Source of the DNA: Sugiyamaella lignohabitans
Taxonomy: Eukaryota; Ascomycota; Dipodascomycetes; Dipodascales; Trichomonascaceae
Length of the DNA: 64,000 nt
NCBI RefSeq assembly: GCF_001640025.1
Contig: NC_031672.1
Location: 2,108,001 to 2,172,000 of the forward strand
Reading direction: 5' to 3'
The notes below the pieces were generated by a model. It was given only the letters and a program-made list of their open reading frames with translations, ran no database searches and was not told the DNA's origin. The position numbers were made by a program, and so were the translations under genes. Shown here one piece after another: positions 1,815-63,181 of this stretch. Numbering within the stretch: position 1 is the first letter of the stretch; every line of letters starts with the position of its first letter.

Positions 1815-1970
1815 TGCCTCCGGCGGCTGGGGCTCCGCCCCAGACCCTGGTTGCTCCTCTCGCTTCGCTCGAGTCGGGCGTCGAGGTCCAATCCACTCCA
1901 GGGTCCTCGCAAAATCTCCTGCGAAGCAGGAGCCACGGGGTCTGGGGCAGAGCCCCAGCCGCCGGAGGCA
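1815..1970. repeat. GC palindromic element, inverted pair
   Basis: The forward arm starts TGCCTCCGGCGG and has tip hairpin TCTCGCTTCGCTCGAG. The reverse arm has tip CTCCTG-CGAAG-CAGGAG and ends CCGCCGGAGGCA. The element is open in five reading frames, which gives several meaningless overlapping ORFs. Confidence 0.95.
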
Positions 1971-1987
1971 GTAGGCCCCCCTCCCAG

Positions 1988-1996
1988 TTATCAGAT
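1988..1996 (-). promoter_or_regulatory. ATCWGATAA iron-GATA site
   Basis: TTATCAGAT, the reverse complement of ATCTGATAA, a few bases after the palindromic element. Confidence 0.4.
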
Positions 1997-2475
1997 TTGT
2001 CCTAAACGAGGGAGGGGTCTGGAGCAGCACGTTCCTTTGTGGGACGGGTGCAGGGATCTCAACCGCCAATTGTGGTGGTATGCAAAGTGCCAATCATCAG
2101 TGGGAGCAGAAAAACAAAAAAAAAACATTCGTGGTGCTTCCCCACCGTTGCTGCTGTGATGCCAGATGGTAGTCGAACGTTCCTTGTTTTCAGATGCATG
2201 TCCAAGACTTCTCTTGTTTCGTGAGATCGGCCGGTCCAGTCTGGTGCTGCTTCCGCTCACTTTAACCATAAATCATTCTACGCCCTGAGAATCCAGAGCT
2301 TCTGCTATGGTGTGTGGGGGCTGTCACCCAGCCAGAAGCCCCTCCTTTTGTCCCCTCACCCCTCCCCCATAGTCCTCCCGGCTCGCCCCCCCTCCACCAG
2401 CAGCTCCTCCACCAGCCGCTGCCCCTGCTGCTCTCCCATTGTCGACCCGTGTAATACTCCATAGCCAGCCCTTGA

Positions 2476-2874
2476 ATGAAGCGAGATGGTCGGCCGGGCA
2501 TGAGCAGTCCGTCAGAAATATCCCAGCCTGAGAATCAGCATCAGCCTCTCAGCGGCAGAAGCATCAGCAATGGAAGCAGCTCTTACAGCAGGGTTCCAAA
2601 TGTGTTTCAGCTGGCACAGGCTGGTTTGACGTCAATGGGTGCGATGCTGCAGCCGTTTTTTCCCTACGGCAAACCCGACCAGCAGCCATTCCTGTTTCCT
2701 CTCCCACAGACCGAACTCACCACCCACACACACACTCAAAGTCAGACTTCGCACCACCGCCAACCCCCAACTCAACTCAATCCCGAGTCTAACTCTCCTG
2801 CGAAGCAGGAGCAACCAGGGTCTGGGGCGGAGCCCCAGCCGCCGGAGGCACACCCCGTCCCCCCCAGTAATTGA
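2476..2874 (+). CDS. Short hypothetical ORF with a repeat-derived C-terminus (uncertain)
   Basis: An ATG-initiated frame of 132 codons. The first 95 or so residues have a believable composition: Ser/Gln-rich, then a hydrophobic stretch around VFQLAQAGL, then Pro/Phe-rich. The C-terminal 25 are simply the translation of a reverse-arm palindromic element (2795-2850). I recognise no homologue or domain. It could be a small lineage-specific gene whose end was replaced by the element, or chance. Confidence 0.25.
   Translation: MKRDGRPGMSSPSEISQPENQHQPLSGRSISNGSSSYSRVPNVFQLAQAGLTSMGAMLQPFFPYGKPDQQPFLFPLPQTELTTHTHTQSQTSHHRQPPTQLNPESNSPAKQEQPGSGAEPQPPEAHPVPPSN
2795..2850 (-). repeat. GC palindromic element, solo arm
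   Basis: Single reverse arm with tip hairpin CTCCTG-CGAAG-CAGGAG, the GGGGC-GGA-GCCCC hairpin and the CCGCCGGAGGCA end. Confidence 0.93.
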
Positions 2875-3267: not shown

Positions 3268-3384
3268 AAATTTTGTGTTGTTTGTTGTTAGTGAAAAGGT
3301 TGGTTTGGTCGATCGGATTATAACCTACTTAGCTACAATCGGGTCTTCTATCATATCAATCAATCAATCAATCATATCAATCTG

Positions 3385-4748: not shown

Positions 4749-4886
4749 TGCCTCCGGCGGCTGGGGCTCCACCCCAGACCCCGTGGCTCCTCTCGCTTCG
4801 CTCGAGTCGTTGCGTCGACAGTCCCAGCACTCTCTTGCGAAGCAAGAGCCACGGGGTCTGGGGCGCAGCCCCAGCCGCCGGAGGCA
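4749..4886. repeat. GC palindromic element, inverted pair
   Basis: Lies between the convergent ends of FTR1 and the methyltransferase gene, ending 11 bases from the latter's stop codon. The forward arm carries a mispaired middle hairpin (CTCCACCCC). The reverse arm has tip CTCTTG-CGAAG-CAAGAG. Confidence 0.95.
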
Positions 4887-6127: not shown

Positions 6128-6809
6128 CCTCTTTCCGCTGTTGTTTCTGTCCTCTTAACAGAATAATTTCGATACCAGAACGTCGAAATTCGCAACTGTC
6201 AGTTCACAGATCAAACTGCAGTTCACGTCTCTATGCTGTGTATTCGAGGTATATATACTACATATCCGGCAGACATATCCTGCTGCAGGGCGAACAGCCT
6301 GCAGTCACACCAACTTTCTGGAACCACACCCCCTCCTCCAACTACCACAATTATTTCTAAAAACAAATAAAACCGGTCACGGAGGACCCATAACTGCCGG
6401 GGGAGGGTTCTGCCTCCGGCGGCTGGGGCTCCGCCCCAGACCCCGTGGTTCCCGCTTCGCGGGAAAGAACGTGGGTCTCCCAGCGCTAGAAGGGACCCCA
6501 ACGCCCGACTCGAGCGTAGCGAGAGAAGCCACGGGGTCTGGGGCGGAGCCCCAGCCGCCGGAGGCAGCGGGGGACCAAGTACCCCTGAATTTCCCCATTC
6601 CAGAGATGGTGTGTCGAGGAAAGTGAAAAATGGGCCCTAGCCCTGGGAAGTCGCATAGGCGCATGGCATGCGTGTAAGTTCGGCCAATTAGAGCCGTGTT
6701 ATTCCAATAAACTGGTGAAAATCGTACCTGTCGTGAACCTACATTGCGAATCGAATCTTCGACGACAATACCGTGGGCAGCGCTCGAGATATAGCACAGT
6801 CCGAACAGA
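6128..6809. other. Divergent intergenic region with one element
   Basis: Shared upstream region of the methyltransferase and NDUFB9 genes. It contains the palindromic pair at 6411-6566. I see nothing else beyond short T/A-rich patches. Confidence 0.6.
6411..6566. repeat. GC palindromic element, inverted pair
   Basis: The forward arm has the rare tip stem TTCCCG-CTTCG-CGGGAA. The reverse arm carries core GCGTAGC. It lies in the divergent promoter region between the methyltransferase and NDUFB9. Confidence 0.95.
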
Positions 6810-7477: not shown

Positions 7478-7614
7478 TGCCTCCGGCGGCTGGGGCTCCG
7501 CCCCAGACCCCGTAGCTCTTGCTTCGCAAGAGATTGCTGGGACCGTGGAGTAACGACTCGAGCGTAGCGAGAGGAGCAGCGGGGTCTGTGGCGGAGCCCC
7601 AGCCGCCGGAGGCA
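7478..7614. repeat. GC palindromic element, inverted pair
   Basis: Fills the space between the convergent stops of NDUFB9 (7412) and MED14 (7684). The forward-arm tip is CTCTTG-CTTCG-CAAGAG; the reverse arm has core GCGTAGC. Confidence 0.95.
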
Positions 7615-10680: not shown

Positions 10681-12855
10681 TGGAATCAGTAATACCAACA
10701 GACAACTAAAAACCCCAACAGATCATACAAACGGCACCCAAAAATAAAATCAAAATACAATTTTCTGACCTAAACCGAACACAGCAGATTTAAATAAAAC
10801 AGTCGAAGATGACGAGAGAATGAATTCAGCCCAAAACAGATCAACGAGACCCAAAATAAGCCGGACGAGTAAGTTAATATCAAGCACAAAACCACAAATG
10901 CAAAAATCGAAGTTTAAAGAGACCTAGCCGGACAGATCTCAGAGTCGAGAGTTAGAGTATCGGCACGGAATGGGTTATCCGTTGTCGAAAAAGACCGTCG
11001 AAACTGCCAATTACAATAAAAAAACCCGCAATAAAAAACAAGCAAGCGATACCGCAGGCGATATACGCGCAAAAAAACTGTACAGTTGGACCCGTCCAAA
11101 CGAACAAGCGTGCAATAAACAAATACAAACCCACCTCAGCGGTAGACGACCAGCAATAACATTACCGAGCGAGCGCCATAGTAAATTAATGGTCATTTGG
11201 CGAACCGACTTGCATACAGCCGTGCCAAATAGCCGTGCCGCATCTCATCCCACCACCACCACCCCCAGCGGCATCCTCTCGGATCCCTCCCTCACCTCCT
11301 CATCTTTTCCGAAACACTCCACGGTCCCAGCAATCTCCTGCGAAGCAGGAGCCACGGGGTCTGGGGCGGAGCCCCAGCCGCCGGAGGCCGGGCCAGGAGT
11401 GGGGGTGTGCCTCCGGCGGCTGGGGCTGCGCCCCAGACCCCGCGGCTCCTCTCGCTTCGCTCGAGTCGGTGCGTGTGGGGTGTGTGGAGGTTGGGGAGGT
11501 GGGCAGGAGGAGGAGTGGGTGGGAGGAGGGGGGAGAGTTGGTGGACCCTGGATGGACAGGGGCGTGCGGCTATGGGGTTTTAAAGTTACACTGCAGGGGA
11601 GGTGACAGATAGGGGATGCGGGGCTGGTGATTTAACATGGAGGCCCTAAACCTGTAATTAATTTCGAGATTACTGGAGTGTCTCAGAGGAGTTGTTGATA
11701 GAGTTCATTGTGCAATTGAGACGGATGTCGTGTGCTGCGGCGTAGAGACAAACTGACCAGCTCGAAACACGCCTTGGATTTCAGCCACCAGGTTTTTTTA
11801 AACGCCTGTATCTGCCAGCAGGATCCACCAATGCTGGTATCAGCACCAGCCACCAGATTACCTCGTTGAGTGCCGTAGATTACAAACCTTTTTGGGAACT
11901 GATTGAGATAAGGAGTTGTAGAGACCTCGAGAATTGGTTACTGGAGCTCTTGAATGATTTTTTTGGTTTATTTATGGATTTTTTTGTGCTCATTTTGTTG
12001 TCAATTTATAGACAGCCCTACAGCATATATCAGTAGAGTTACCCCACTGTGCATATTACATTTGATACACATATTATAAGAGCAGGTGTGGCTTTCTCAC
12101 TGAGTAGTTTTACTGTCGCTGACCTGACAGACAATTTTGTTTTTTCTTTGGTCTGTGACCCTGGTTGAGTTTTTTTGTTTTTGGTAGAGTTGATTGTTAA
12201 GAGTCGGTTGTTGGAGTATTGGCTGCCATTTCATCAACAGTAGCGAGCAGTAATCTTCCTTGCTTTTTCAGTATGCACAACAAACCGAAGTAATAAAATC
12301 CAGATATTATACTGCATCACTGAGGGAATCGTCAGCTTTATCAACCCAACTTTTTATTAACTCCAACGTTCATACGATAGATATTGTTTGAACTAGCAAA
12401 TACAGAAAGAGATTTTAGGGCCAATAGTGCTAGATTCAATTGTCAAATCAGATTGTGAAGTCGACTGGTCACTGGCATATCAGTGCCTGCTATAGATCAT
12501 TTGCAGCCATTGTGAGCGATATATTATCTCATCACCTCGATCTCTCTCCGATTCACGCGTGGATCTCTTTGATCTGATCTCGGTTTGTATGGCGTTCAGT
12601 GGTGATATATTATTTATTTCGACAGTGTGTCGACTTCTAAATCATTCCTGGACAACATATTTGTCAAGTATCCATTGAACCGGGTCATCGCGTCCTCTTA
12701 CGTGAGGTATATTTCATTTGACATCCGAACATCGCTACTAGAGCTCTTCGTATCACAGGTTTAACTTTTTCACCACGTTCTTCTATTAGTCAGTCGTATT
12801 TGTTAGTTCTGGATCGGGTGCCATCCCGTGTATCCAATCTAACCTCACCCTTCTC
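10681..12855. other. Long divergent intergenic region, MED14 / PRR1-like kinase
   Basis: 2.2 kb. The MED14 side is A-rich. The middle holds the everted palindromic pair (11335-11468). The last 1.2 kb before the kinase is T-rich, with many short pyrimidine tracts, and looks like a long promoter and leader. I see no gene. Confidence 0.6.
11335..11468. repeat. GC palindromic element, everted pair
   Basis: A reverse arm (11335-11388) comes first and a forward arm (11408-11468) second, so the GCCTCC ends face each other and the tip hairpins point outwards. This is the opposite of every other pair in the window. The tips are CTCCTG/CAGGAG and TCTCG/CTCGAG. Confidence 0.93.
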
Positions 12856-15800
12856 ATGTCGAACGTTCACTATAGTGGTACTGGGGCCTATGAACGGCAA
12901 AAGAATCCACCACTGACCCAGTCAGACTTGAATTCAGATAATGCCACGAAAGTTGAAAGTAGTGGAAGCGCTGAGAGTGCTGGGAGCACTCTCAGCATTG
13001 ACGGCACTGACAGCAGTGTAGAACGAGATAGCCATAGTTCAAGCGCTCATGATGGTACAGGTACGGGTTCCACTGTCGATACTACTGGTCAGTTTCTAAG
13101 TAATGTTTCTGGAAAACACGAAATGGACACTGCTGAGCCTGTTTCTGATGTTGAGATGGATGAAGCAGATGATACCAGCTCTATTCAATCAACTCCTCCA
13201 TCATACAGTACCAACAAATTTGTGTCTGATTCGATAACAGCCAACTCTGGGTCTGATCCGCTTTCAAACCTCATTTCGTCATTATCTACCGATTCATCAC
13301 CCATAGCCCCGTTTCCAGGTCGAGGTCCTGCACCAACAAACCCCATAATACCTACAACTGTGCCGCCAAGCACTCTTGGAGAAGACACCAACCTGTCTCA
13401 TACTGTTAACCAGATTCCCATACAATACTCTAATGAACCCAACATTGTCTTTACCTCTTCATCTCAATCTTCTGATAATACTAATAACTATGCAGGAAAA
13501 AAATCTGTTCGAGAACCGCTCAAACTGCAGATTCCTCCAACCTCATCCACCTCATCCTACCCATCATCCTCTACATCATCATATTGGGACCAACAGTTAG
13601 CCAGTCCATTTGAAGTGGTACCTTTTCCATCGCCATTAATTGGTCCTTCGGAAGGTGAAGACTATGATTCAATGGCCCTCTTTCGTGCCTTTAATGGCAG
13701 AAGCTCACCCATGTCAGCAACTGTATCAAGAGCTTCTTCTATTCGTAGACCGACAAGTATGTCTCCACAAGATAAATTGTCTATATCCAGCCCTTCTCCA
13801 ATTGCTCCCATAACAATTGCAGCCGCTAGTGCTGCCCTGTCGTCACTAAAACGACAGCAGTCGTTGTCAAAGGGCCAGCTGTCGTCATCGATACAATCAC
13901 AAGACGGACTAATCCCGTCAGCTACAATCAACACACCAAGTACCCCTCGTGAGAAGCGTATAGTGAGTGAATACGTACCTGTAGCGAATAACCCAGCCAA
14001 CAACATCTTACCGCCGCGACTACCTGGAATCCTAGCTGACAAACCAAGTCGACTGCTTCCACCAGCAGATATGACGTCTTCTCTTACTGGTACTCTTCTC
14101 CCACAACCACCGCATCAGTCGCCAATTCCACTTCCTTTATACACGACCCACGGAGACCAGCCAATAATTATAAAGAAACGAGATGACCAGCAACAGCAGG
14201 ATAATGTTAACAGATCTCGTTCAAACAGTGATCTTAAAACTCCACCTCTTCGTCCTCTATACGGTCGTTCATCTTCGAGCGAGCATGTCCGTCTTATCGA
14301 AAAACTTCACCGAGAACGGATTCCGAACCTTGCTCTTCATACGGCCACTAGTTCCTCTAGTTCGTCGGGCCAAAGTTCAAATTTGAATGCTGGCTCTGGA
14401 CTTGTGAGTTTGTTGCCAACAAGTTATGAAAAAACGAGTCCTCTTTCAAAGTCATCTTCCACTGCTTCTGAGGCAAGCCGTCTTTATTCATCTGCCTCTT
14501 CAACCTCTAGTCAAGAACTTGATCGTGACGTAGACTCTGAGGAAACAATTAGCACGGTGGGTCATAAACAACGTACTTCAGAAGTGAAAATCGAAGACAC
14601 GACATCAACCGGAACCAAAGAGACAACTTTAACTGTTCCGAACCAACTTTCAGAAACTGTTACCAGTCCACCAGCAACTGGAAGAATTTATGAAGCATAT
14701 GATATCAAGAAAAGAAGGTCGACTTGGCGAGAAATATCGCTACTTGGTCGAGGAGCTTTCAGCAGGGTCGTGCTTGCGAAGCCCGTTGAACGATTTGTCA
14801 TTCCCTCTTACCGTGAGAAAGTCGACTCAATTCTTGTGGCCATCAAAATTGTAGAGCTCGGAGCTGCTGGAGGAGGATCCCGCGAACGGATCGAGTCTGG
14901 TCTTGGCAGAGAAATCGAAATATTAAAGGTTTGTATACCATCATTATTATCTTAACCCTGTATGGAACTAACTGTGAACTATAGACTGTGAACCACCCAT
15001 CCCTGATATCACTCTATGGGTTTAATATGGACCAAAGCAAGGCGCTGATGGTATTATCCTACTGTCGCGGAGGAGATTTATTTGATCTCGCAGCCAAGCA
15101 CCGAGACAAGCTGCGACCACAGATGGTGCGTCGAATCTTCGCCGAGCTGGTCAATGCCGTAGCGTACCTCCACAACAACAACATAGTCCACCGAGACATC
15201 AAACTGGAAAGTAAGTTCTACAGTTCTCGCCACGACTCGACTCGAGCGCAGCGAGAGGAGCAGCGGGGTCTGGGGCGGAGCCCCAGCCGCCGGAGGCAGG
15301 ACCCCCAAAACCAGGACCTAACAAATCCCAGATGTGCTGTTGAACATGCCAGTTGAAGAACTGCTGTCGCTGGACGACCCAGCACACTATAAACGGCCTC
15401 TGGCTACCTTGACAGATCTCGGTCTGTCGAGAAAGATCGATCCCGAGAACCCTCAACTTGTGACGAGATGTGGGTCGGAAGACTACGTACCGCCAGAGCT
15501 GCTGATGGGCCAGCCATATGACGGGAGACAGACAGACTCATGGGCTCTTGGAGTGCTGCTTTACGCTGTAATGGAAGGACGCCTGCCTTTTGACCCGCCG
15601 AAGAACGTGGGTGGAGGACGGTCGCGAGGACGGACCGCGCATAGAATCGCCCGTGTCGAGTGGTCGTGGATCGCGTTTAAAAACGATCCACCCCAGGAGA
15701 AGCTGCCATACAGCGAGGAATGGGTCGGCGGAATGGAAATTGTTGAGGGGTGTCTACAAAAGCGAGACCTCCGTTTGCGAGCAGTGGATATAGCCGAGAT

Positions 15801-15882
15801 GCCCTGGGTCAAAAAAGCAGTCTGCGAACTCGAACGCAGCGATTTATTGCCCGTCAGCGACATCTTCGTTGACGGTGACTAA
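12856..15882 (+). CDS. Ser/Thr protein kinase, Prr1-like
   Basis: Three exons: 12856-14928, 14985-15210 and 15332-15882, encoding 949 residues. The N-terminal 610 or so residues are Ser/Thr/Pro-rich and disordered. The kinase domain spans about residues 620-915: glycine loop LLGRGAFSRVVLAK, VAIKIVEL lysine, catalytic HRDIKLEN (split across intron 2), DLG in place of DFG in TDLGLSRK, GSEDYVPPELLMGQPYDGR activation and APE-like region, then DSWALGVLLYAVMEGRLPFDPP. The C-lobe resembles yeast Prr1 (YKL116C), a kinase that dampens pheromone MAPK signalling; that orthology is inferred. Intron 1 (56 nt) has AACTAAC 12 nt before its AG. Intron 2 (121 nt) contains a palindromic element, with CCTAAC 9 nt before its AG. 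It converges on YTH1. Confidence 0.88.
15236..15298 (-). repeat. GC palindromic element, solo arm inside a kinase-gene intron
   Basis: Reverse arm with core GCGCAGC. It occupies about half of the 121-nt second intron of the Prr1-like gene, leaving the 5' splice site, branch site and AG outside the element. Confidence 0.95.
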
Positions 15883-15996
15883 GGCTGACAACGATACCCT
15901 CTGGCTACGAGGACTTGATGATGTGATGAATATAATGATGTGTACTATGAATTACTAACTAGAAACTAATTACTCTTTTGATATACGAACGGGACC

Positions 15997-16052
15997 TGCC
16001 TCCGGCGGCTGGGGCTCCGCCCCAGACCCTGGTTGCTCCTGCTTCGCAGGAG
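15997..16052 (+). repeat. GC palindromic element, solo arm
   Basis: Forward arm with tip CTCCTG-CTTCG-CAGGAG, between the convergent kinase gene and YTH1, 114 bases after the kinase stop. Confidence 0.95.
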
Positions 16053-17179: not shown

Positions 17180-17254
17180 TGCCTCCGGCGGCTGGGGCTC
17201 TGCCCCAGACCCCGTGGCTCTGCCCCAGACCCCGTGGCTCCTGCTTCGCAGGAG
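17180..17254 (+). repeat. GC palindromic element with internal 20-bp duplication
   Basis: Forward arm in which the 20-bp segment between the middle and tip hairpins (TGCCCCAGACC.. to ..GTGGCTC) is repeated in tandem. Tip CTCCTG-CTTCG-CAGGAG. It lies between the YTH1 start and the RHB1 end. Confidence 0.93.
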
Positions 17255-17497
17255 TTACTCCGGGTGTCGAGGTCACTGTTGTACTCTGAATTATGTCTCA
17301 CAAAAGCCAAAAAATGAAAAAATTTCACCTCAGAGTGAAGTGTCAAATTCTGTTCCAGGGTAGAACAAAAAACGGCCTTTCAGCGATTATTGAAACAAAT
17401 CTAGTTGAATTTATTCAGTTTCATTACATTACATACTCATTATCAGTCATAACATCGCGAAACGCGCAAGTAATTACAGCCCCGTCCATCTTCATCA

Positions 17498-18463
17498 TCA
17501 TTGCACAGTACAGCTGCTTGTCGTCTCTTGAACGGGGTTCTGCTGTCTCTCAATTTCTGCTAATAAAAGCTCAAATGCTCGATCTGGCCCTAGTTAGTAC
17601 CCACAATCTCTACGGGAACACTTCTGCCTCCGGCGGCTGGGGCTCCGCCCCAGACCTCGCTGCTCCTCTCGCTGCGCTCGAGTCGAGCTTGGATAGTGCA
17701 GCAGCATTTTAAAGACGACAAAGCTACTTACTGACGTTCTCGTTGTGCCGAGCCGACGCCTCGACAAACCCGCAACCGAGATCTTTCGCGAGCTTGCGGC
17801 CCTCTTCCTCGCTGACCTGTCGCTGGATATGCAAATCTGACTTGTTTCCCACAATCACCGCTGGCACTTTATCCGTCCCCTACTCTCGTTAGTCACCACA
17901 TCCTCCAGGGCATACCGACGCAACGACTCGAGCGCAGCGAGAGGAGCAACCAAGGTCTGGGGCGGAGCCCCAGCCGCCGGAGGCACACCCCTCTCCCCCA
18001 GAACACTTACCATGTTATTGAGAATCTTGTCGAGCACGATGCGGATCATTTCGAACGTCGACCGCGATGCCACTGAGTACACTAACAGGTACCCGTGGAT
18101 GCCAATCAGATGTTTCTGGTTGATGATGCTGAACTCGTCCTGGCCGGCGGTGTCGAGGATCTCTATCGAGAACTCCTGGCCCCGGTATCGAATGGTTTTC
18201 GAGAACTGGTTCTCAATGGTCGGGTAATAACTCTCTACAAAGTGGTCTTCCACGTACTGCAGTGTCATCGACGACTTGCCTGTGTAAAGCGGTTAGTGGG
18301 TACAAACGGGGGTGGGGTGTGCCTCCGGCGGCTGGGGCTCCGCCCCAGACCCTGGTTGCTCCTCGAGCTTCGCTCGAGGAGATGCTTGGGGAAGGCCATT
18401 TCACTTACCTACGGCTCGGGATCCGACGACCGCTACTTTTCGCACTCGGGGTGGTCCTGCCAT
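17498..18463 (-). CDS. RHB1: Rheb-family small GTPase Rhb1
   Basis: Ras-superfamily GTPase of the Rheb branch, which acts on TORC1 and amino-acid uptake in fungi. Four exons on the minus strand: 18409-18463, 18011-18279, 17732-17879 and 17498-17583, encoding 185 residues. P-loop GSRAVGKSS has Arg where Ras has Gly12, and switch II DTAGQDE has Asp; both are Rheb hallmarks. Base-binding motif NKSD and the SA motif (EASA) follow. The C-terminus CTVQ is a CaaX box predicted to be farnesylated. All three introns (129, 131 and 148 nt) start GTAAGT and have CTAAC 8-12 nt before the AG. Each contains one solo palindromic arm. The 3' AG of intron 3 was taken as the CCAG, not the TAG immediately after the branch site; it restores NENVNRAFELL. 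Confidence 0.95.
17625..17684 (+). repeat. GC palindromic element in RHB1 intron 3
   Basis: Forward arm (reverse relative to the gene) with core GCGCAGC on its complement, inside the intron at 17584-17731. Confidence 0.95.
17924..17985 (-). repeat. GC palindromic element in RHB1 intron 2
   Basis: Reverse arm (forward relative to the gene) with core GCGCAGC, inside the intron at 17880-18010. Confidence 0.95.
18320..18381 (+). repeat. GC palindromic element in RHB1 intron 1
   Basis: Forward arm with the perfect tip CTCGAG-CTTCG-CTCGAG, inside the intron at 18280-18408. Confidence 0.95.
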
Positions 18464-21145: not shown

Positions 21146-21287
21146 TGCCTCCGGCGGCTGGGGCTCCGCCCCAGACCCTGGTTGCTCCTGCTTCGCAGGA
21201 GAGGATGGTGGGGCCCCCGACGAAACGACTCGAGCGAAGCGAGAGGAGCCACCAGGGTCTGGGGCGGAGCCCCAGCCGCCGGAGGCA
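21146..21287. repeat. GC palindromic element, inverted pair
   Basis: The forward-arm tip is CTCCTG/CAGGAG and the reverse-arm tip is of CTCGAG type; the two arms carry different tips. About 24 bp of unrelated sequence separates them. Confidence 0.95.
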
Positions 21288-23218: not shown

Positions 23219-25100
23219 ACCCGACCCTTGTTTATCTATTTGCTTTGTGTTTTCTTTACGATGTTATTTATTTAATGCCTATTTATCTCATTTCCTCTCT
23301 GCCTCCGGCGGCTGGGGCTCCGCCCCAGACCCTGGTTGTGCTTCGCTTCGCGAAGCTGATGGGGTGTATAACGGACTCGGGGGTTGTGTGAAATACGAGA
23401 TAGAGTAACCCTCCGTTTACTATTAGCATTGGCCAGCTGCTGAACTTGCTACTTGCGTTGATATCAATTAACATATATAGGGCAGATCTAACAGTATGAG
23501 TGGACTGACGTATGCTTTCACTGCCGCAGTATTCTAGATAGAAGTATAGCACTTTATACGACTGATTCGTAGGTTCGTATGGCAGAGCTCTTAGATTGTT
23601 TGATGTTAAGACAGTATCTGTCCAGCTTAAATCTCATGGCAGTACTTTTAGAGTGCCATCAATGGTCATCCGATACCGGATCTTGAAGTTACCCAGGTCT
23701 TAGCTGAAATTTCATTCGATTGGTCTACGTTGCCAACCTTTCGTCCCCTAACTGAGCAGAAGCTTGTCAGCTGATAATTTATCTCACCATATTGAACTCC
23801 CTACTTGTCTGGTTACCCTTTTGACAGTTTTAGCTTTCTCGATCACATGCTCCGTGGACAAAGGTTTAGAGTAGCATTTGCAGCACTTGGCACCAAAGTC
23901 AATTTATTATTCATCAAATTAGATATTTAATTAGCGTGATGAACGAAATGTTAGAGATCATCATTCTAATGACCCCAGGCTACGAAGAGGGGTCTCTATT
24001 CTGAATAACTCGGTCTACAAAATGCACTGATCCTCGGCGGGTACATTGCATTGCATGAACATGATCATTAAACCTGATTCTGCTGGAATATTTCCTGTAT
24101 AATCAGCTGTAAAACGTATTATCATCACTACAGAAACCAGGCTCGGGGATATACCATAGGGAGATTCCAAGATGGCAACGTGAGAGACTGGCCATTGAGG
24201 GGGCCAAGAACGTGGGATAGCTTTCAATTAATGGTAAAAGGTCGGTTCATAGCTAGCTGTATAAATCTTTACCAATATGCAATTGTACAGAGACTGATAA
24301 CTGTATTTCAGGTTATAATGATCCTGATTCTCAAAAAGATAATTATTACTCACTCTAACATTTAGAACCATCTTTGCAGAGAGATGCAGGTGATCTATGC
24401 CTTTTGATGCAGAGTAATGTTAAGATCTGAGATGGACGAGAGGCAGGCGTTGGACCTTGCATGCAGAAGTATGGGCATGATTGCAAGTGTACCTGGATGA
24501 CACTTGTGATGAACTGCTGAGCTATACAAAGCAAAATCCATATGATATATTTACATCAATTATTTAAATCGGGTTTCAACTTTTATATCTTAGAGATCGA
24601 TGTCCCGATGCAATAATATTTCCAGTTATTCTATATTGAGTATAGAGATAAGATAACGGATTGATAGAGTCATTTCAGGAACTATAGCTAGGTTCAGTTA
24701 GAAGTCATATACCAAGCGACCATCGCATGTTATTTATAAGATCCTTTCAAATAAGCAATGTTTTTAATACTAATGTCATAGTTGATTGTAATAAGTGTCA
24801 TGCGAGTAATAGTTAGCGGAATTTTATATTCTTCGAATGCCCCTACCTAGTAGTACCTATAAGACCAAGAGGGTATGGAATTCCACTGAGTACTAACAAA
24901 ATCATCAGGCCGCGAGTTAAAAAAAGGTGCTATGAAGAATATACCAAACAATTTATATTTCAAAGAATAGCTACATTTAACTAAGTAGATAAAGCAGACG
25001 TGGTATGCTCAGACGTTGCCACACGCTAACTAAACTCATTTCTATACACTAGAAGTGAATGGCCGAGTGTCACTCACATACTCTAATCAAGAATACTGGT
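23219..25100. other. 1.9-kb spacer between convergent genes
   Basis: Apart from the palindromic arm at 23300 I see no gene, tRNA or recognisable repeat. The sequence is AT-rich, with only short ORFs. Confidence 0.6.
23300..23356 (+). repeat. GC palindromic element, solo arm
   Basis: Forward arm with tip stem GCTTCG-CTTCG-CGAAGC, unique in the window, 81 bases after the membrane-protein stop. Confidence 0.94.
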
Positions 25101-26656: not shown

Positions 26657-26817
26657 TGCCTCCGGCGGCTGGGGCTCTGCCCCAGACCCCGTGGCTCGTC
26701 TCGCTCCGCTCGACTCGGACCGTGTCGGGACTCTAACAGTAGGGGTCCCAGCGAATCGACTCGAGCGAAGCGAGAGGAGCAGCGGGGTCTGGGGCGGAGC
26801 CCCAGCCGCCGGAGGCA
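26657..26817. repeat. GC palindromic element, inverted pair
   Basis: The forward arm has a diverged tip (TCTCGCTCCGCTCGACTC). The reverse arm has core GCGAAGC. The middle hairpin of the forward arm is GGGGCTCTGCCCC. Confidence 0.94.
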
Positions 26818-27209: not shown

Positions 27210-27263
27210 GCTCGCGAAGCGAGCACCACGGGGTCTGGGGCGGAGCCCCAGCCGCCGGAGGCA
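27210..27263 (-). repeat. GC palindromic element, solo arm
   Basis: Reverse arm with tip GCTCG-CGAAG-CGAGC and an intact remainder. Confidence 0.93.
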
Positions 27264-30337: not shown

Positions 30338-30375
30338 GATACAGGGTGTCCTGTAAATAATTTATTCGCTACAGT

Positions 30376-35951: not shown

Positions 35952-36141
35952 TGCCTCCGGCGGCTGGGGCTCCGCCCCAGACCCTGGTTGTGCTCGCTTC
36001 GCGAGCTTCTGGGGCTGTCAGCAGCTGTTTTTCCCGTGGAAAATGGACTCTGGCAGCGAATTCGACCCCTCCATACGGTCCAAGCCGCTCGCGAAGCGAG
36101 CACAACCAGGGTCTGGGGCGGAGCCCCAGCCGCCGGAGGCA
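35952..36141. repeat. GC palindromic element, inverted pair
   Basis: Both arms carry the GCTCG/CGAGC tip. It lies between the convergent ADE8 and PUP1 stops, beginning 29 bases after ADE8. Confidence 0.95.
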
Positions 36142-38800: not shown

Positions 38801-39129
38801 TTTTTTTTCGTGTGGAAATCTTCAAAATAATGGGAAGGATAAAAATAAACCCTTTTCACAATAGAAACTTCAATTTAAATTCACCCGTCAAAAGCGAACT
38901 TATACGTGCGTACGTGAGTGTGTTCAAACCAAGTGGCTATGAGCCCGATTCGAAATCGCTGCTGCTGCAACACCACCTGCCAACCCGCGTTTGCCACGCC
39001 GTGCCTCTCGACTCTGCCCCCATTCCTCGCAGCCGCTTGCGGTAGGGTAACTCTTCTACAGATGTTAGGGTCACAGGTCTTATTTATAGGTTTTTGGGGT
39101 CGTTTTATTTGCTGGGTGGCCATTTTGGT

Positions 39130-39181
39130 TCCAGCGGCTGGGGCGCTGCCCCAGATCCCATTTTACTCCGCTTCGTGGAAC
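39130..39181 (+). repeat. Decayed GC palindromic element
   Basis: Recognisable only by CAGCGGCTGGGGCGCTGCCCC and CTCCGCTTCGTGGAA. The end hairpin is lost and the tip stem has a mismatch. Confidence 0.75.
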
Positions 39182-39406
39182 CTTTTTGGGGGGCCAATGG
39201 CCGGTTTCTGGTGGTGCCGTGTGATGCTACGGCTGACGAGACCTCTGACAGGCCACGAACGAGGATCACCACTGGACCTGACTCAGACTGACTCAGTGAG
39301 ACTCTAAGGAGGCAATTGCACTTGTTTTCTCTCTCGAGGGGCTATTTTACGGCTCGTGTGCACTCTTGGCACGGTTTTGCCACCGCCACGGGCTTGGCAC
39401 CTGCTT

Positions 39407-39629
39407 CCTCCGGCGGCTGGGGCTCCGCCCCAGACCCTGGTTGTGCTCCGCTACGCGGAGCGACGTGGCGAACCCCCCAAAAGCCGACTCGAGCGAAGCG
39501 AGAGGAGCAGCGGGGTCTGGGGCGGAGCCCCAGCCGCCGGAGGCACAACACCTGACGCCCCGAAAAACCGACTCGAGCGGAGCGAGAGGAGCAGCGGGGT
39601 CTGGGGCGGAGCCCCAGCCGCCGGAGGCA
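39407..39629. repeat. Three-arm GC palindromic element cluster
   Basis: A forward arm with tip GCTCCG-CTACG-CGGAGC and a small insertion at its end, a reverse arm (GCGAAGC) and a second reverse arm (GCGGAGC) follow in series. The two reverse arms are nearly identical outside the tip, as if one had duplicated. Confidence 0.94.
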
Positions 39630-42600: not shown

Positions 42601-44083
42601 ATCAGTGACCACAGTAAAGTATGTGTTTCTAATCGGAAAACACAACCTGATTCGATTTCATAGCACACAAGCAAACTCAATGGCTTCTCAGGATGCCATC
42701 TGATCCACTTTATATGCCCTTCATGGCCACCTCGAGGCAGGATCTCCTGCTTCAAATGCCAAGCATAGTTGCTAACTGTCCACAACTGAACTGTATTCTC
42801 AAACACCACTGCCAACACATCTGAATCAATATTCCACGCAAGCCCTTTAACAGCAGGCGCATGTGATATTTCTGTTGGAGGAGCAGTACTTGTATGTTCG
42901 CCAGAACTAGCTCCACCCACGGCCGTGAGATTCTCTCTTCTCAATGAGAACTCTCCTCTTCTCAAACCATTTCTCTCAAAAAATACTAGATCCTGACCAG
43001 ACGGCTTATTCTGTACACCTGCGATAAGATTTCCTGATGGTCTCCAAGAAATCTCCCCCTCGAGCCAGTCCACTGGCTCTGAGACGCTATTTAATGATCC
43101 ATCCCGGCCATAAACTCGAACAGTACGTCTTCTTAAACCACCTTCAACCTCATCAATGGTGCTAACTGCCACAAATTCACCATCGCCTCTCCAACTTATC
43201 CTCGTGAACTGACCAGAGTCACTCTCTACAGCAACACCAGAGTCAACCTTGGCCGGCATGGTGGGATCTCGCAAAGCCTTGGCTCCCTTTCCCTCAAACT
43301 GGGTCTCCTTTTTACCCCATCCAACTGACACATGCTTTGAAATCTTTAAATCGTCTTTTTGAATCGAAGCCTCTGCAATTGACTCGAAAACACGACTTAG
43401 CAGAATCACTGACTTGCTTGTCACAATACTGAGAATCTCCTCATCAGGACTCCAAGCGGCATCAGTCACTCCATCGTCAATTGACCCTACAATCTCCACA
43501 ATGGCTTCTTCACCACTGTCAATTCCTGGTGTAACACTCTCACCATCAGCAGCTGATGAGTAGCTAGCAACTCCAGTCACATTAATCAAATCGCCATTAG
43601 ATAGCACCAAAACCACGTTATCCGTATCGGAAAAATACTTGGAAGAAAGCACTTTAATCACCTCCTCATTCTCATTTTCTTCTTGTGGAAGTTCCCAAGA
43701 TGCAAATACTGATACCTGGCCAGATTTCTGACTCCGTTAGTTCTCGTTCGGGAAGTAGACAATGCCTCCGGCGGCTGGGGCTCCGCCCCAGACCCCGTTG
43801 CTCCTCTCGCTACGCTCGAGTCGTTACGTCTACGTTTTCACCAATTTCTCATCGGAGACCAGACTTTTCGTAGGAGATCAAACCATCCGTGCTATTACTA
43901 AACTCATAGCAAACTTACCGATATCTTCTGGATCTCCACATTTCGGAAGTCAGCACTTGGACCGTAGGTGCAAATCATGGTGTCAGCGAATGGATCGAAT
44001 TCGGACCATGCTAGCGGAAGGTCGGGCACGGTTTCCGAGCGTACGGTGAGTACTCCACGGTGCGCCGTCACTAAATTGCGCAT
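39693..44083 (-). CDS. ELP1: Elongator complex subunit 1 (Iki3)
   Basis: Scaffold of the Elongator complex, which makes mcm5/ncm5 modifications on wobble uridine of tRNA. Two exons on the minus strand: 43919-44083 (55 codons) and 39693-43727, encoding 1399 residues. The first exon starts MRNLVTAHRG, the canonical Elp1 N-terminus. The intron (191 nt, GTAAGT, AACTAAC 8 nt before its AG) holds a solo palindromic arm; splicing joins NVEIQKIS to KSGQVSVFASWEL in frame. WD40-like N-terminal propellers (GVTDAAWSPDEEILSIVT, FTRISWRGDGEFVAVS, KGLAWNIDSDVLAV) are followed by an alpha-solenoid with TPR-like repeats. The basic RREERKRARGKKGS stretch near the C-terminus is the tRNA-binding and dimerisation segment known in Elp1. 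Longer than the 1349-residue S. cerevisiae protein. Confidence 0.96.
43763..43824 (+). repeat. GC palindromic element in the ELP1 intron
   Basis: Forward arm with GCGTAGC on the complement, inside the intron at 43728-43918, close to its 3' end. Confidence 0.95.
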
Positions 44084-48476: not shown

Positions 48477-49083
48477 AGTGGCTTGCTGAATTTCTATGCA
48501 AATGCGAATGCAGAATAAATAAATATAAAGCCCGAGCTCACACCTCTAAAGTGTAATGTTGACAGATCCAAAATATTTTCATGATCGACATACCTGTGCT
48601 TATCTTATCAACCAGAAGCCCTAACCTCTATCAAACTCAGGGGGTGGACTGATTCAAATAGTATCTTTCACTCCTTCTGTCAAAATAGAAATACCATTGT
48701 ATTAATTATCACAGAAATCCTAGCAGGCCCACCATGTCGAAATTTATCTGGTCAGCGTGAATCACGGGTTCCCGATGGTGAAATCTCCTGCGAAGCAGGA
48801 GCAACGGGGTCTGGGGCGGAGCCCCAGCCGCCGGAGGCAAAACCCCGATCAGGATTTAACTCTGGATAACCCATTTAGTCTCCCAAATTTTATCTAGCAG
48901 AACTAGCAAAAGATTGTAGGAAGTGTCCTGGCTCGGTGTAGCGCCGCAGGGTCGCCTCGCGCCGTAATCGGCAATGGTGCATCATGTCTGATAGTAGATA
49001 ACGGCCGACCTGTGGACTTGTAGACGGAACCAAACCAGACATTAGAAACCAAGAAACAGAGTTGAGTGCTTGAGAAATCCAGT
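48477..49083. other. Divergent RIX7 / VPS20 promoter region
   Basis: 607 bp with a solo palindromic arm at 48784. No other feature recognised. Confidence 0.6.
48784..48839 (-). repeat. GC palindromic element, solo arm
   Basis: Reverse arm with tip CTCCTG-CGAAG-CAGGAG in the RIX7/VPS20 divergent promoter. Confidence 0.95.
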
Positions 49084-49744: not shown

Positions 49745-49880
49745 TGCCTCCGGCGGCTGGGGCGCTGCCCCAGACCCCGTTGTGCTCGCTTCGCGAGCAG
49801 CTTGGACCGTCGAGCCCGCTGAAAACTCCTGCGAAGCAGGAGCCACGGGGTCTGGGGCAGAGCCCCAGCCGCCGGAGGCA
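49745..49880. repeat. GC palindromic element, inverted pair
   Basis: Lies between the convergent VPS20 and HEM2 stops (44 and 46 bases away). The tips differ: GCTCG/CGAGC and CTCCTG/CAGGAG. The forward middle hairpin is GGGGCGCTGCCCC. Confidence 0.95.
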
Positions 49881-51558: not shown

Positions 51559-51614
51559 TGCCTCCGGCGGCTGGGGCTCCGCCCCAGACCCTGGTTGCTC
51601 CTGCTTCGCAGGAG
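51559..51614 (+). repeat. GC palindromic element, solo arm
   Basis: Forward arm with tip CTCCTG-CTTCG-CAGGAG. Confidence 0.95.
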
Positions 51615-54957: not shown

Positions 54958-55102
54958 TGCCTCCGGCGGCCGGGCTCCGCCCGGACCTGGTTGTGCTCGC
55001 TTCGCGAGCTCTCGCTCGGCCTACCGCCCCTTACTCCGCCCCCCACTCCCTCCGCGAAGCGGAGGACAACCAGGTCCGGGCGGAGCCCGGCCGCCGGAGG
55101 CA
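54958..55102. repeat. GC palindromic element, subfamily B inverted pair
   Basis: The middle hairpin is CCGGGCTCCGCCCGG instead of CTGGGG..CCCCAG, and the linker is shortened (GGACCTGG). The tips are GCTCG/CGAGC and CTCCG/CGGAG. Confidence 0.94.
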
Positions 55103-55613: not shown

Positions 55614-55941
55614 TGCCTCCGGCGGCCGGGCTCCGCCCGGACCTGGTTGTGCTCGCTTCGCGAGCGGTTTGGGGGCTGTGAGAGATGTTTTTTTAGGGGG
55701 TTGTGTGAAGAATTGAGGTGGTTCGCGTGAATTTTAAGGTGAATCGCGATCGCGACCGTAGCGGTCCGTCCGAGCCCAAACTGGCGATTTTAAGTCAGTT
55801 TCAACTCGGTTTCAACACGATTTCAAATCAATCTCCCTCCAATATCCAATCCTGAATCACCCTCAAACCGCATCCAAGAACCCCACGCCGCTCGCGAAGC
55901 GAGCACAACCAGGTCCGGGCGGAGCCCGGCCGCCGGAGGCA
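55614..55941. repeat. Subfamily B arms in a wide inverted pair
   Basis: The forward arm 55614-55665 and the reverse arm 55888-55941 have identical tips (GCTCG/CGAGC) and are separated by about 220 bp, far more than in other pairs. The reverse arm ends 44 bases before the LSC2 start codon. Confidence 0.92.
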
Positions 55942-58442: not shown

Positions 58443-58578
58443 TGCCTCCGGCGGCTGGGGCTCCGCCCCAGACCCTGGTTGCTCCTGCTTCGCAGGAGAC
58501 TGGGACCGTTGAGCAACGACTCGAGCGCAGCGAGAGGAGCAACCAGGGTCTGGGGCGGAGCCCCAGCCGCCGGAGGCA
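58443..58578. repeat. GC palindromic element, inverted pair
   Basis: Lies between the convergent CCDC25-homologue and COX12 stops (39 and 74 bases away). Forward tip CTCCTG/CAGGAG; reverse core GCGCAGC. Confidence 0.95.
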
Positions 58579-60170: not shown

Positions 60171-62354
60171 ATGAAGAGAAAGTCGGCAGTTAGTGCTCTG
60201 CTAGCTACGAGGAAGAATAAGAATATTAAGCTTGATGATACCGCTTCTTCTACAGCTTCTCCTTCTGAAGGTAGTGAACCTAGTGAACTAGCTAATCCAG
60301 ATGTGTCTGTTATTGAACTGGAAGACAATAGTAATATTGAAGATGAAAATGGTCTGAATCAACAGAGCACCGACGTTGCTGTAGAAGCCACAGTAGTTAT
60401 TGATGAGAATGACGTGAATGCTGGTAATGAGGAAGATGAAGAAATCGACGACGAAGTAGAATTCGCTTCTTTTCCTCCTTCTGGACTCTCGTCTAGACAA
60501 AGATCTAAATCAATTGAGGCTGCAGTCGAGTTCCCCGAAGATTTTATTACTGTTAGCACCTTTAAACAAAATTCACACAACACCGTTAAACTGACGACCG
60601 GTAGTGAAGTTTATGGAATGGTCAAGGGTGAGACGTTGGCTTTTAATGGAGAGTATCAGCTCACGATTCAAAAAGGAGCTGTCCGTATTATGGGAGCTAT
60701 TCTACATGCCAGCAAAAGATCTTACCATATTTCATCGCCCTGTAATGGTACGCATGCCCTACCAGTAATTGAGTGTGTTCAAGTTGAGAACCTCGAGCTG
60801 GTTGAACAGACAACTACAGACTATAACGAGCAACTGATTGATTCATACAGAGCGGTTATTAAAGTTGAATCGGCTCCTACAGGATTGCGCAATGTCGTTA
60901 ACTTGGCACCTAATTTCAAGAACCTCTGGGGACTATCTGAGGGCCCTAATGAAGACTCTCAAACTGATCTTGAAGATGACAAAGAAGAAATACCATTATT
61001 TGAAGACGACGAAGTTAAAAGTATATCAACTGGTAGTACGACACCAGCAAAACCCAGCTTCCAAATAATATACAGAGCGCCAGCCTCGATAGCGCTATTC
61101 AAACCATTCAGATCATGGTATGATATGGCTGCTAAGACTGTAGCCCTTGGATTTGATAATGATCCACCAAAGGTTCTTGTACTAGGACCCAAGTCATCTG
61201 GCAAAAGTTCTTTCTGTCGATTTCTCACAAACTATTTCCTCGCTTCAGAAATAAATCAATGCCATTATCTTGAATTGGACCCTGGTCAGCCCGAATACTG
61301 TCCTCCTGGAACAGTTTCTTTACACTCACCAGAGTTTAACTTTAGCCCATCATTTTCGCATTCTAACTTTCGGAACTCCATCCGTGCCCACACTATTGGC
61401 TCCACATCACCCAAAGATCATCCCAACGTCTACCTGTCTTACTGCCGTGATCTGTATAGAACCTACGAAAAGACTCAAGTAAAAAGTCAATCTCCACTTA
61501 TCATCAATACTCCTGGTTGGACTCGTGGTCTTGGCGTAGACTTACTTGCTGATATCACCTCTATCGTTCAACCTAATATTATAATCAGTCTTGGACCCGA
61601 CGATTCGCAGACCGAGATTCGTGCTGTTCTCTCCCGTCGTACTGACATTCCCGTCACATCCCTTGAATCAGTCCTCTCATACAACTCCAATGCATACTTA
61701 TCTGCTCCCTCATCAGCTGCTAAATACTCAGCCTCTGAACTCCGAGTCCTTCAGACATTAACCTATTTCCACTCTGCATCTTCCCCTATTCATTCACTAA
61801 AGTTCAACTCAACCCACTTAACCGAAACTGTACCATATTCTGTTCCCTACGGTGAAGAATCATCTTCAAACCCATTAGCAATCCAAGGAATAGCTATAAC
61901 TGCTAGTGAAGGAATTAATCCTGAAGATGTTTCTCTCTGTGTCAATGGCGCAGTTGTAGCTGTTATTTCTGTCGACCACGAAACATCTCCTATTCCAATC
62001 CAGCGTACCCCCGACGAATCTCTTCCTTATATTGATCCCAACGATCTGCAATCTGTTCTCATCCCCGACACTTGTAAATGCCTTGGCTACGCTGTCGTCC
62101 AATCCATCGATGTTGCTGACAACACCATTCGTCTCTTAACACCGATCCCACCAAGTGTCATATCGCAAAACGACCGCCAAAAGCTAGTCCTTCTCCGAGG
62201 CAGACTACAACTGCCTCTATGGGAGCTCTGGAACCCCTCTCTCGACGACGCGTCCTCCCCGGCCCCATACCTCTCCAAAAGCGGTCCTGGATCCGCCCCC
62301 GGATCACACCGCTGGCGCGTCCGTCGAAACGTCCTCCGCAGAGGCTACGCATGA
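60171..62354 (+). CDS. GRC3: Polynucleotide 5'-kinase Grc3 (NOL9)
   Basis: Nuclear RNA kinase that acts with Las1 in ITS2 processing of pre-rRNA and in RNA polymerase I termination. 727 residues, one exon, with the ATG after an A run. The N-terminal 120 residues are acidic and Ser-rich with a basic start (MKRKSAVSALLATRKNKN). The domain beginning EVYGMVKGETLAFNGEYQLTIQKGAVRIMG precedes the P-loop VLVLGPKSSGKSSFCRFL (Walker A GPKSSGKS), YLELDPGQPEYCPPGTVSL, and the lid and Walker B-like INTPGWTRGLGVDLL. The C-terminal domain ends in a basic RRNVLRRGYA. Longer than S. cerevisiae Grc3 (632), mostly through the N-terminus. Confidence 0.95.
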   Translation: MKRKSAVSALLATRKNKNIKLDDTASSTASPSEGSEPSELANPDVSVIELEDNSNIEDENGLNQQSTDVAVEATVVIDENDVNAGNEEDEEIDDEVEFASFPPSGLSSRQRSKSIEAAVEFPEDFITVSTFKQNSHNTVKLTTGSEVYGMVKGETLAFNGEYQLTIQKGAVRIMGAILHASKRSYHISSPCNGTHALPVIECVQVENLELVEQTTTDYNEQLIDSYRAVIKVESAPTGLRNVVNLAPNFKNLWGLSEGPNEDSQTDLEDDKEEIPLFEDDEVKSISTGSTTPAKPSFQIIYRAPASIALFKPFRSWYDMAAKTVALGFDNDPPKVLVLGPKSSGKSSFCRFLTNYFLASEINQCHYLELDPGQPEYCPPGTVSLHSPEFNFSPSFSHSNFRNSIRAHTIGSTSPKDHPNVYLSYCRDLYRTYEKTQVKSQSPLIINTPGWTRGLGVDLLADITSIVQPNIIISLGPDDSQTEIRAVLSRRTDIPVTSLESVLSYNSNAYLSAPSSAAKYSASELRVLQTLTYFHSASSPIHSLKFNSTHLTETVPYSVPYGEESSSNPLAIQGIAITASEGINPEDVSLCVNGAVVAVISVDHETSPIPIQRTPDESLPYIDPNDLQSVLIPDTCKCLGYAVVQSIDVADNTIRLLTPIPPSVISQNDRQKLVLLRGRLQLPLWELWNPSLDDASSPAPYLSKSGPGSAPGSHRWRVRRNVLRRGYA

Positions 62355-62398
62355 CATATTTCTCGTATCTTTTATTTATTTATTTTTATCTTGCCTTC

Positions 62399-62450
62399 TG
62401 CCTCCGGCGGCCGGGCTCCGCCCGGACCTGGTTGTGCTCGCTTCGCGAGC
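62399..62450 (+). repeat. GC palindromic element, subfamily B solo arm
   Basis: Forward arm with CCGGGCTCCGCCCGG and tip GCTCG-CTTCG-CGAGC, 45 bases after the GRC3 stop. Confidence 0.94.
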
Positions 62451-63120
62451 ATCCTCAACGCTGTGCTGGATTGCACAACCGGGACTAAATCACTGTCTGA
62501 AAGCTTTGTGCATTGTTCATCGCTATTTCCAGCAAAGTGTTCACTCAATTAGTTTTGACTTTGAAACAAAAAATATTGTATTACCTCCAGTTTCACTTCC
62601 AACTTCAACACTACTTCGCTTCGTAATTCGAAGATCCACATCGGAGGACTTGCTTTTATTGTTTGAAAACCACCTCGAATAACACTTCCCGGCAATCTTT
62701 CTATAACATACCAAAAAACACAATTCTTCTTAAATTACGGTATATTCATGGAAAGTAAGTTGCTGCTCAACTCAGGAAGAGAAAAAATCTGTTCTGAAAC
62801 TAATCGTCAAGGCAAAATGTGTTCAGTGCCCTGTTCAATTTGGACCAACAAAATCAACTGCTTTCTTGTCATTCTGAGTGCAATAAATAGGAACCAACCT
62901 GAGCTGACTGTTGTAATGGTACTCTACAGTAGGTAAATACCTACCGATAATTTATTAACCTATCTAACACCAGTTGAACTCATTACGGCACTGAAGACGC
63001 ATAGATGCCTTGTAGCTCAAGATATGCCTCTACCTTAAGTTAATCTCGTCGGGCCAGAAACTGCTCTAGAGGTTTATATTCCAATACCAGTGTGCTCCGA
63101 GAACTGGAGAGCTGAAGCCC

Positions 63121-63181
63121 GACTCAAGCGGAGCGAGAGGAGCAACCAGGGTCTGGGGCGGAGCCCCAGCCGCTGGAAGCA
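63121..63181 (-). repeat. GC palindromic element, decaying solo arm
   Basis: Reverse arm with core GCGGAGC. The end hairpin is mutated (CGCTGGAAGC) and the tip outer stem has one change (CTCAAG). Confidence 0.88.

Follow-up and report, generated by a model that had tools for sequence, protein, structure and literature searches.

Dispersed hairpin-bearing arms in the nuclear genome of Sugiyamaella lignohabitans: a high-copy element possibly constrained as a locally folded single strand

Introduction

A stretch of 64,000 nucleotides from the yeast Sugiyamaella lignohabitans (contig NC_031672.1, positions 2,108,001 to 2,172,000; hereafter the window) is interspersed with short GC-rich arms, each consisting of consecutive hairpins and most often arranged singly or as outward-facing inverted pairs. 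The locus raises the question of what kind of element these arms form and what keeps their copies nearly identical. Our tentative answer is a non-coding, high-copy, dispersed nuclear element resembling the repetitive extragenic palindromes (REPs) and bacterial interspersed mosaic elements (BIMEs) of bacteria, whose arm may be constrained as a locally folded single strand. A near-identical arm every ~2.4 kb in a compact yeast genome is far from the yeast repeats known to us, and the element offers thousands of natural replicates for asking whether DNA folding is selected in a nucleus.

Abundance in the window and in the genome

Arms were located in the window by a sliding match to a 32-nt core, GGTCTGGGGC-GGA-GCCCCAGCCGCCGGAGGCA, and to a shorter CGGGC variant, with arms less than 350 nt apart grouped as one locus. 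This yields 55 arms at 34 loci (Table 1), compared with about 57 arms at 38 loci in the first-pass annotation, a model's reading of the same letters. The repeats exist far above chance, as that annotation held: the window has 119 GCGNAGC sites, where shuffles predict 18.2, and GGGGCGGAGCCCC, a near-palindrome of which many sites are counted on both strands, is found at 116 sites with up to three mismatches against 9.1 expected.

The genome comprises 15.93 Mb in four contigs, and the window sits on a contig of 5.93 Mb. Trimmed of five bases at its start and one at its end, the arm core was found 3329+3283 = 6,612 times at up to three mismatches, a density of about one arm per 2.4 kb; the reversed control gave none. 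A 30-nt pattern with 27 fixed bases and the loop of hairpin 2 left free has 2724+2713 copies, and the long tip described below, with its loop free, has 1630+1619, again with no control match for either. The element is nuclear and not mitochondrial, since the 5.93-Mb contig carries a Rix7-like gene; a second gene on the contig is one that we take to be Elp1-like.

Sequence was read in the window, in 20 evenly spaced 10-kb stretches of contig 1 and in thirty 3-kb loci around exact copies (some overlapping), and contigs 2-4 contributed copy counts. Arms are present in 15 of the 20 stretches and absent from five. Across these stretches, arm number correlates with the GC content of third codon positions (GC3) of predicted coding sequence (rho 0.56, p=0.010), which is perhaps tied to recombination. 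Decayed arms are scarce: to 250 matches at up to six mismatches, only 18 were added at seven to ten, some of them palindrome shadows.

Architecture of the arm and its pairing

The unit is an arm of ~60 nt that consists of a tip hairpin, a linker, a GGTC box, a second hairpin (hairpin 2) and an outer box, GCCGCCGGAGGCA. Positional conservation, evaluated over 192 arms, stops sharply after GGCA, beyond which there is only a weak C-rich tract; on the other side of the core lie the linker and then the tip. The basal pair of hairpin 2 is T-A in most arms and C-G in arms of the CGGGC variant. Two classes of tip were recognized among 193 arms (up to six mismatches). A long tip, defined by a match to CGACTCGAGC-GNA-GCGAGAGGAG within six mismatches, is carried by 104 arms, at least two of which resemble short tips; a short tip is assigned to 86, two of them being chance matches that were removed before alignment, and three arms are without a tip. 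In 264 kb, an arm lies within 25 nt of 69/70 long tips and 30/32 short tips. As nearly every tip adjoins an arm, tip and arm belong together.

The 76 loci comprise 37 single arms, 33 outward-facing (-,+) pairs and six other arrangements. The core-to-core gap of 62 pairs ranges from 68 to 297 nt and is 71-78 nt in 29 of them. One short and one long tip are combined in 47 of the 62, compared to 31 expected, and this excess of heterotypic pairs suggests that the ancestral element was probably asymmetric.

Outside the loop of hairpin 2, 146 of the 193 arms are perfect, and just 1.7% of non-loop arm sites are off consensus. In contrast, the 18 nt that adjoin the tips towards the centre are distinct in 146 of 148 cases, with a mean pairwise identity of 0.33-0.34, although in some of these columns one base reaches a majority of up to 75%. 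That the arms are nearly identical while the centres have diverged points to selection on each arm or to its continual renewal. A recent burst by itself is disfavoured, since the centres would then have been copied as well.

Local hairpins in the tips

A constraint on local hairpins in the tips is well supported. In 24 distinct short tips, first located by a score that rewards pairing, 89.9% of cells are paired compared to 69.9% in shuffles that leave kinship among the copies in place, a level reached by 0/500 of them. Both-sided changes affect 44 cells, compared to 16.7 in shuffles, and covariation scores 0.597, compared to 0.236 (0/500 shuffles in each case), with slid structures at 0.09-0.19. 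The counts of double-changed pairs and of extra pair types are not significant (253/500 and 163/500 shuffles, respectively). Placing the short tips of 86 arms by their loop only, which gave 25 distinct tips and misplaced some, left the five outer pairs 72.8% paired against 46.7%, with 35 double changes against 12.9 (0/1000 shuffles).

The long tip is nearly invariant, 22 of its 23 positions being 94-100% conserved, and the lone exception is the apex of the loop. Among the first 100 genome copies listed, the loop reads GAA in 40, GCA in 37, GGA in 11, GTA in 11 and AAA in one; it is thus GNA in 99, with N free and its neighbours fixed. The short-tip loop is mostly GAA. A C(GNA)G loop with a free N is the feature of the GNA mini-hairpin: a passage of PMC4686876 names GNA or GNNA loops as an extraordinarily stable class in DNA and gives a melting temperature as high as 78 C for the GCGAAGC hairpin. 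The long tip is not a Watson-Crick palindrome, however, as full pairing requires two tandem G·A mismatches. Its Watson-Crick inner form is found at 47 sites, compared to 3249 mismatched long tips that are perfect outside the loop.

All four bases reported at N of the tip core by the first-pass annotation are present inside the named elements, the positions that it gave being element or arm starts; GCGGAGC also occurs inside hairpin 2, so some GCGGAGC sites are not tips. Its further claim, that every loop is GNA closed by C-G, describes the consensus, in which all loops are C(GNA)G, but not the individual copies of hairpin 2. Among the first 100 of these listed, 77 have GNA, 12 AGA and six AGC, and TAC, AAA, TTC, TCT and AGT occur once each. 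Hairpin 2 is therefore not strictly GNA. Free departure of loops from GNA, named in advance as a sign against the folded design, is seen in part at hairpin 2 and not at the tips. Three of the rare loops are flipped versions of others, TTC being the reverse complement of GAA, TAC of GTA and TCT of AGA, which suggests strand exchange at the hairpin.

The arm as a folded single strand

We tentatively interpret these data in terms of a constraint that would act on each arm as a locally folded single strand. The C(GNA)G apex with its free N and the tandem G·A pairs suggest that this strand is more likely single-stranded DNA than RNA. The arm may have been copied in this folded form into gaps of single-stranded DNA behind transcription units, a route that would create no target-site duplication, and the enzyme at work may belong to host replication or repair, or be a nuclease-transposase that has escaped recognition. 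The first-pass annotation had proposed that the element is kept as a folded single strand; the local tip hairpins, with their covariation and free loop N, are in agreement, whereas folding energies give DNA no advantage over RNA.

Pairing between the two arms was considered as the conserved fold and set aside. Across 62 pairs, none of the non-loop changes (38 and 18) is common to both arms, which favours local hairpins.

Several observations weigh against the folded-strand interpretation. Most stem changes in hairpin 2 are one-sided and uncompensated. DNA energy rules miss the tandem-G·A long tip (z 0.07) and find the whole arm (62 nt) not unusually stable (z -0.54); RNA rules recover the two internal loops of the long tip (z -0.50), so the folded strand may be RNA. 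Folded as one strand, the full pair at 58443..58578 forms one extended hairpin whose outer run spans 44 pairs (-76.6 kcal/mol, z -16.5). The linkers of paired arms are alike (1/2000 shuffles), as are the loops of hairpin 2 in 41/62 pairs compared to 36.6 expected (57/2000 shuffles), and CGGGC-variant arms, which lie outside the 62 pairs, occur together as pairs. Conserved sequence by itself would also fit a double-stranded protein site. Decayed copies are fewer than a mobile family would ordinarily show, unless selection or renewal maintains its members.

The signs of mobility that were sought belong on the same side. In the 62 pairs, target-site duplications of 2-6 and 8 nt at offsets 0-5 do not rise above shuffled pairs. 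Profile searches of the yeast genome found neither Y1_Tnp (PF01797; control positive in 5/14) nor DDE_3 (other DDE families were not searched), nor Helitron_like_N, for which the control was silent. The three families searched thus gave no hairpin-specific enzyme for the mobility system that the first-pass annotation had named as one possibility.

Position relative to genes

A simple codon-based coding map, with neither a start nor an intron model, was made for the window and the 20 stretches (L031-L050). Five of the 76 loci overlap coding segments, eight lack a neighbour on one side and 63 could be classified. A 3' end is the closest coding end for 34/63 loci, compared to 34% expected (p=0.002), and 17/63 fall in the interval 100-200 nt beyond a predicted coding 3' end, compared to 3.7 expected, this interval being the top of 14 bins and picked afterwards. 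Convergent intergenic space holds 13 loci against 7.0 expected (p=0.025) and divergent space 19/63 against 26.0 (p=0.095). Single arms have no clear bias in orientation to the nearer gene (11 same and 7 opposite at 3' ends, 12 and 4 at 5' ends), and poly(A)-type motifs around the loci are not clearly enriched (TAAATA 2.22 versus 1.81 per kb, AATAAA lower).

The preference for gene ends is what would be expected of a host-functional 3'-end element, acting as a terminator, a road-block or a hairpin of the 3' untranslated region, in RNA or double-stranded DNA, and selected gene by gene, with its symmetry serving both strands of convergent pairs. We regard this as possible but unlikely. The peak past 3' ends and the convergent excess support it, together with the conservation of each copy beside mostly unique centres, the few decayed copies and the two internal G·A loops that RNA folding yields for the long tip. 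However, many genes do without an arm, as five of the 20 stretches have none; divergent space still holds its 19 loci; and clusters, tandem arms and single arms resemble dispersal. The absence of a clear orientation of single arms and of a clear enrichment of poly(A)-type motifs also argues against a role at 3' ends.

Further explanations of arm identity

A double-stranded palindromic site for an abundant protein, such as a chromatin or replication factor, in which the hairpins never form, appears improbable. Its 32 near-invariant nucleotides and palindromic layout would suit such a site, and since hairpin 2 and the boxes hardly vary, they say little on folding. The tips do not suit it: the long tip keeps its non-palindromic G·A pairs (3249 versus 47) and has the loop apex as its sole free base, and the stems of the short tips change together.

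There is a slim chance that identity is kept by mutation bias, through hairpin-templated correction and short-tract gene conversion, without selection for function. The flipped loops of hairpin 2 (3/100 listed) and the correlation between arm number and GC3 are consistent with such a process, as are internal direct duplications of part of hairpin 2 and the linker, seen at 17180-17256 of the window and again at 6527-6608 of stretch L033 and expected from hairpin slippage. Correction by template switching, however, should make the long tip a perfect palindrome, a form that is rare, and single changes are not common to both arms of a pair.

Miniature inverted-repeat transposable elements (MITEs) are short and non-coding and have terminal inverted repeats. 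Also improbable is an ordinary MITE of a DNA transposon with termini TGCCTCC...GGAGGCA, because, despite inverted ends (at paired loci only), a size often of ~140 nt and a high copy number, the element has no target-site duplication, single arms at 37/76 loci as well as tandem arms, near-identical ends around mostly unique centres, and no DDE_3 in its genome, DDE_3 being the one DDE family searched.

Candidate carriers

The 40-nt flanks of the 62 pairs contain no longer direct-repeat signal. Reverse transcriptase is present in the genome, with 13 RVT_1 matches, several within open frames of >1,000 aa. Three matches with identical scores lie in 1,145-aa frames (G000:C1:3056215-3056976, C3:656590-657351 and C3:703545-704306), perhaps young copies of a long interspersed nuclear element (LINE)-like type. 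A short interspersed nuclear element was rejected on the grounds that there is no tRNA or Rfam head (no Rfam match at gathering scores and no tRNA by ARAGORN with the bacterial code) and no target-site duplication, even though the genome encodes a LINE-like reverse transcriptase. Viral contigs have no match to the exact 27-fixed-base pattern, and 17 plasmid records matched, none over more than 75% of the arm. Homologues of short proteins, sought as a trace of the element elsewhere, were not found in a search that was uninformative.

Comparison with known systems

As outlined in part of PMC2817692, REP/BIME are short palindromic units, high-copy and extragenic, with alternating orientation, and have suggested roles in termination and chromosome organisation. 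The yeast element likewise consists of extragenic palindromic units in high copy number, placed singly or in alternating orientation, with 5/76 loci overlapping predicted coding sequence. It differs from the systems described there in residing in a yeast nucleus and in having two tip types, conserved boxes, tips with GNA and tandem-G·A folds and no Y1_Tnp; thus, no cognate gene for a REP-associated tyrosine transposase (RAYT, Y1_Tnp) flanked by repeats was found.

The GC clusters of Saccharomyces mitochondrial DNA (mtDNA), as presented in a portion of PMC4478555, are GC-rich palindromes reported to be mobile, with stems kept, loops freer and units merged or shuffled, as in the yeast element. 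They are mitochondrial and flanked by AG or ACT direct repeats, and in S288c the four commonest clusters number 5-25 identical copies, whereas the element described here is nuclear, without duplications and in thousands of copies. Dispersed non-coding hairpins with nested copies also characterize the short palindromic repeats of Volvox organelles (PMC2670323, in part), whose loops are mostly TAAA/TTTA, which are AT-rich in mtDNA, and whose small nuclear share is read by the authors as inert.

Literature text searches returned no description of a yeast element of this design, in line with the first-pass annotation, which knew of none. Word searches on GC-rich yeast hairpins, Sugiyamaella genomes and repeats, nuclear palindromes and eukaryotic REP-like elements gave nothing describing it, and the arm and tip strings have no match in the text searched, outside which most subscription papers lie. 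The outer box string is present in four papers that are, by title, on other subjects. The terms 'palindrom' and 'hairpin' do not appear in the main text of the S. novakii (PMC12232646) and T. vanleenenianus genome papers by term search.

A look-alike in bacteria

Scanning prokaryotic species genomes with the 27-fixed-base pattern identified four contigs, from Solidesulfovibrio aerotolerans, a Desulfovibrionaceae metagenome-assembled genome (MAG), Desulfovibrio sp. and an Acetobacteraceae MAG. About 0.003 matches are expected for independent bases at 65% GC, a figure that hairpin symmetry raises and that comes without a control-pattern scan. The outer box GCCGCCGGAGGCA occurs 90+97 times in Solidesulfovibrio, 5+5 in the Desulfovibrionaceae MAG, 5+8 in the Acetobacteraceae genome and 21+22 in Desulfovibrio sp.; its reversed control gives 0, save 2+1 in the Acetobacteraceae genome.

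Most of the Solidesulfovibrio stretches fetched have the layout TGCCTCCGGCGGC-hairpin-GACCC ... GGGTC-hairpin-GCCGCCGGAGGCA, with AATCCC replacing GACCC in some arms; a gapped pattern with a seven-base inner box had no matches. Neighbours less than 600 nt apart are (-,+) in 18/23 cases and never (+,-), in 100 of 187 places. Of 118 genomes of the same phylum, two carry many copies of the layout (205 and 32) and the others 0-2; the controls likewise give 0-2. Among 34 distinct listed bacterial hairpins, the basal pair is C-G in 27, T-A in six and T/G in one, and pairing is unbroken for at least five pairs from the base in 24, with an earlier break in 10.

The intergenic repeats of Solidesulfovibrio and of a second genome of its phylum (G044) thus share with the yeast arm the outer box TGCCTCCGGCGGC, the inner GACCC box and a hairpin between them that is usually C-G or T-A based, and those of Solidesulfovibrio also share the outward-facing inverted pairs. 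They differ in that the hairpin sequence varies, mostly with compensation and mostly with other loops, no GNA tips were seen, paired boxes are 133-498 nt apart and the copies number 205 and 32. A link to RAYT is unsupported: Y1_Tnp is absent from the yeast and from one of the two repeat-abundant bacterial genomes, and no boxes lie within the stretches fetched beside six Y1_Tnp matches (in three of five bacteria searched). Literature word searches on Desulfovibrio intergenic repeats returned no description of these repeats.

The likeness may reflect descent or convergence; the former would imply a cross-domain mobile hairpin and the latter a common physical rule for such elements. A bolder proposal, which we consider quite unlikely, is that REP/BIME systems extend to eukaryotes. 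Desulfovibrionaceae and the yeast nucleus would then share, across domains, a structured element of single-stranded DNA, alike in its two boxes, hairpin and outward pairing, which either crossed from bacteria or is served by one hairpin-recognising enzyme in both, and the yeast form would have evolved hyperstable GNA/tandem-G·A tips and thousands of copies at gene ends.

Elements of the window

Table 1. Arms and arm pairs in the window (positions in the window; ORF, open reading frame)
Position	Strand	Arrangement	Details
1815..1970		inverted arm pair	arms 1815-1846 -, 1939-1970 +; one long and one short tip
2819..2850	+	single arm core	short tip 2795-2811
4749..4886		inverted pair	between convergent ORFs
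6411..6566		inverted pair	long tip loop GTA
7478..7614		inverted pair	short tip, compensatory stem CTCTTGC/GCAAGAG
11358..11439		two arms face to face (+ then -)	rare order
15267..16028		two single arms	15267-15298 +, 15997-16028 -
17180..17256	-	arm with direct duplication	part of hairpin 2 and linker duplicated, beside short tip
17625..18351		three arms	17625-17656 -, 17954-17985 +, 18320-18351 - (last with Watson-Crick long tip)
19796-19827	-	single arm	grouped apart from next
20182-20213	+	single arm	grouped apart from previous
21146..21287		inverted pair	outer flanks inverted-complementary
23300..23331	-	single arm	middle 97 nt beyond ORF stop
26657..26817		inverted pair	top-scoring inverted-complementary flanks
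27232..27263	+	single arm	tip GCTCGC/GCGAGC
30179..30349		pair	+ arm 30318-30349 without outer box (9 mismatches, outside the 55)
32072..32209		inverted pair	
35008..35147		inverted pair	
35952..36141		inverted pair	between convergent ORFs
37279..37463		inverted pair	
37988..38124		inverted pair	
39126..39629		four-arm cluster	tandem 39514-39545 +, 39598-39629 +; 39126-39157 decayed (6 mismatches)
43763..43794	-	single arm	tip loop GTA
48808..48839	+	single arm	
49745..49880		inverted pair	between convergent ORFs
51559..51590	-	single arm	
54958..55102		inverted pair	both arms CGGGC variant (hairpin 2 one pair shorter, basal C-G)
55614..55941		CGGGC-variant arms	55614-55643 -, 55912-55941 +
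57339-57370	-	single arm	grouped apart from next
57822-57853	+	single arm	grouped apart from previous
58443..58578		inverted pair	typical complete element, 136 nt; one short and one long tip
62399..62428	-	single arm	CGGGC variant
63150..63181	+	single arm	two changes in outer box

Inverted-complementary flanks of ~20 nt suggested a long locus-specific palindrome, a candidate that was rejected as only 8/62 pairs exceed the 99th percentile of shuffled pairs. At 2346-2387 of locus L014, two arms are apparently fused head to head via hairpin 2, with both outer boxes lost. Outward from the elements of the window and the 20 stretches, G exceeds C (about 0.28 versus 0.20) for at least 300 nt past the C-rich edge.

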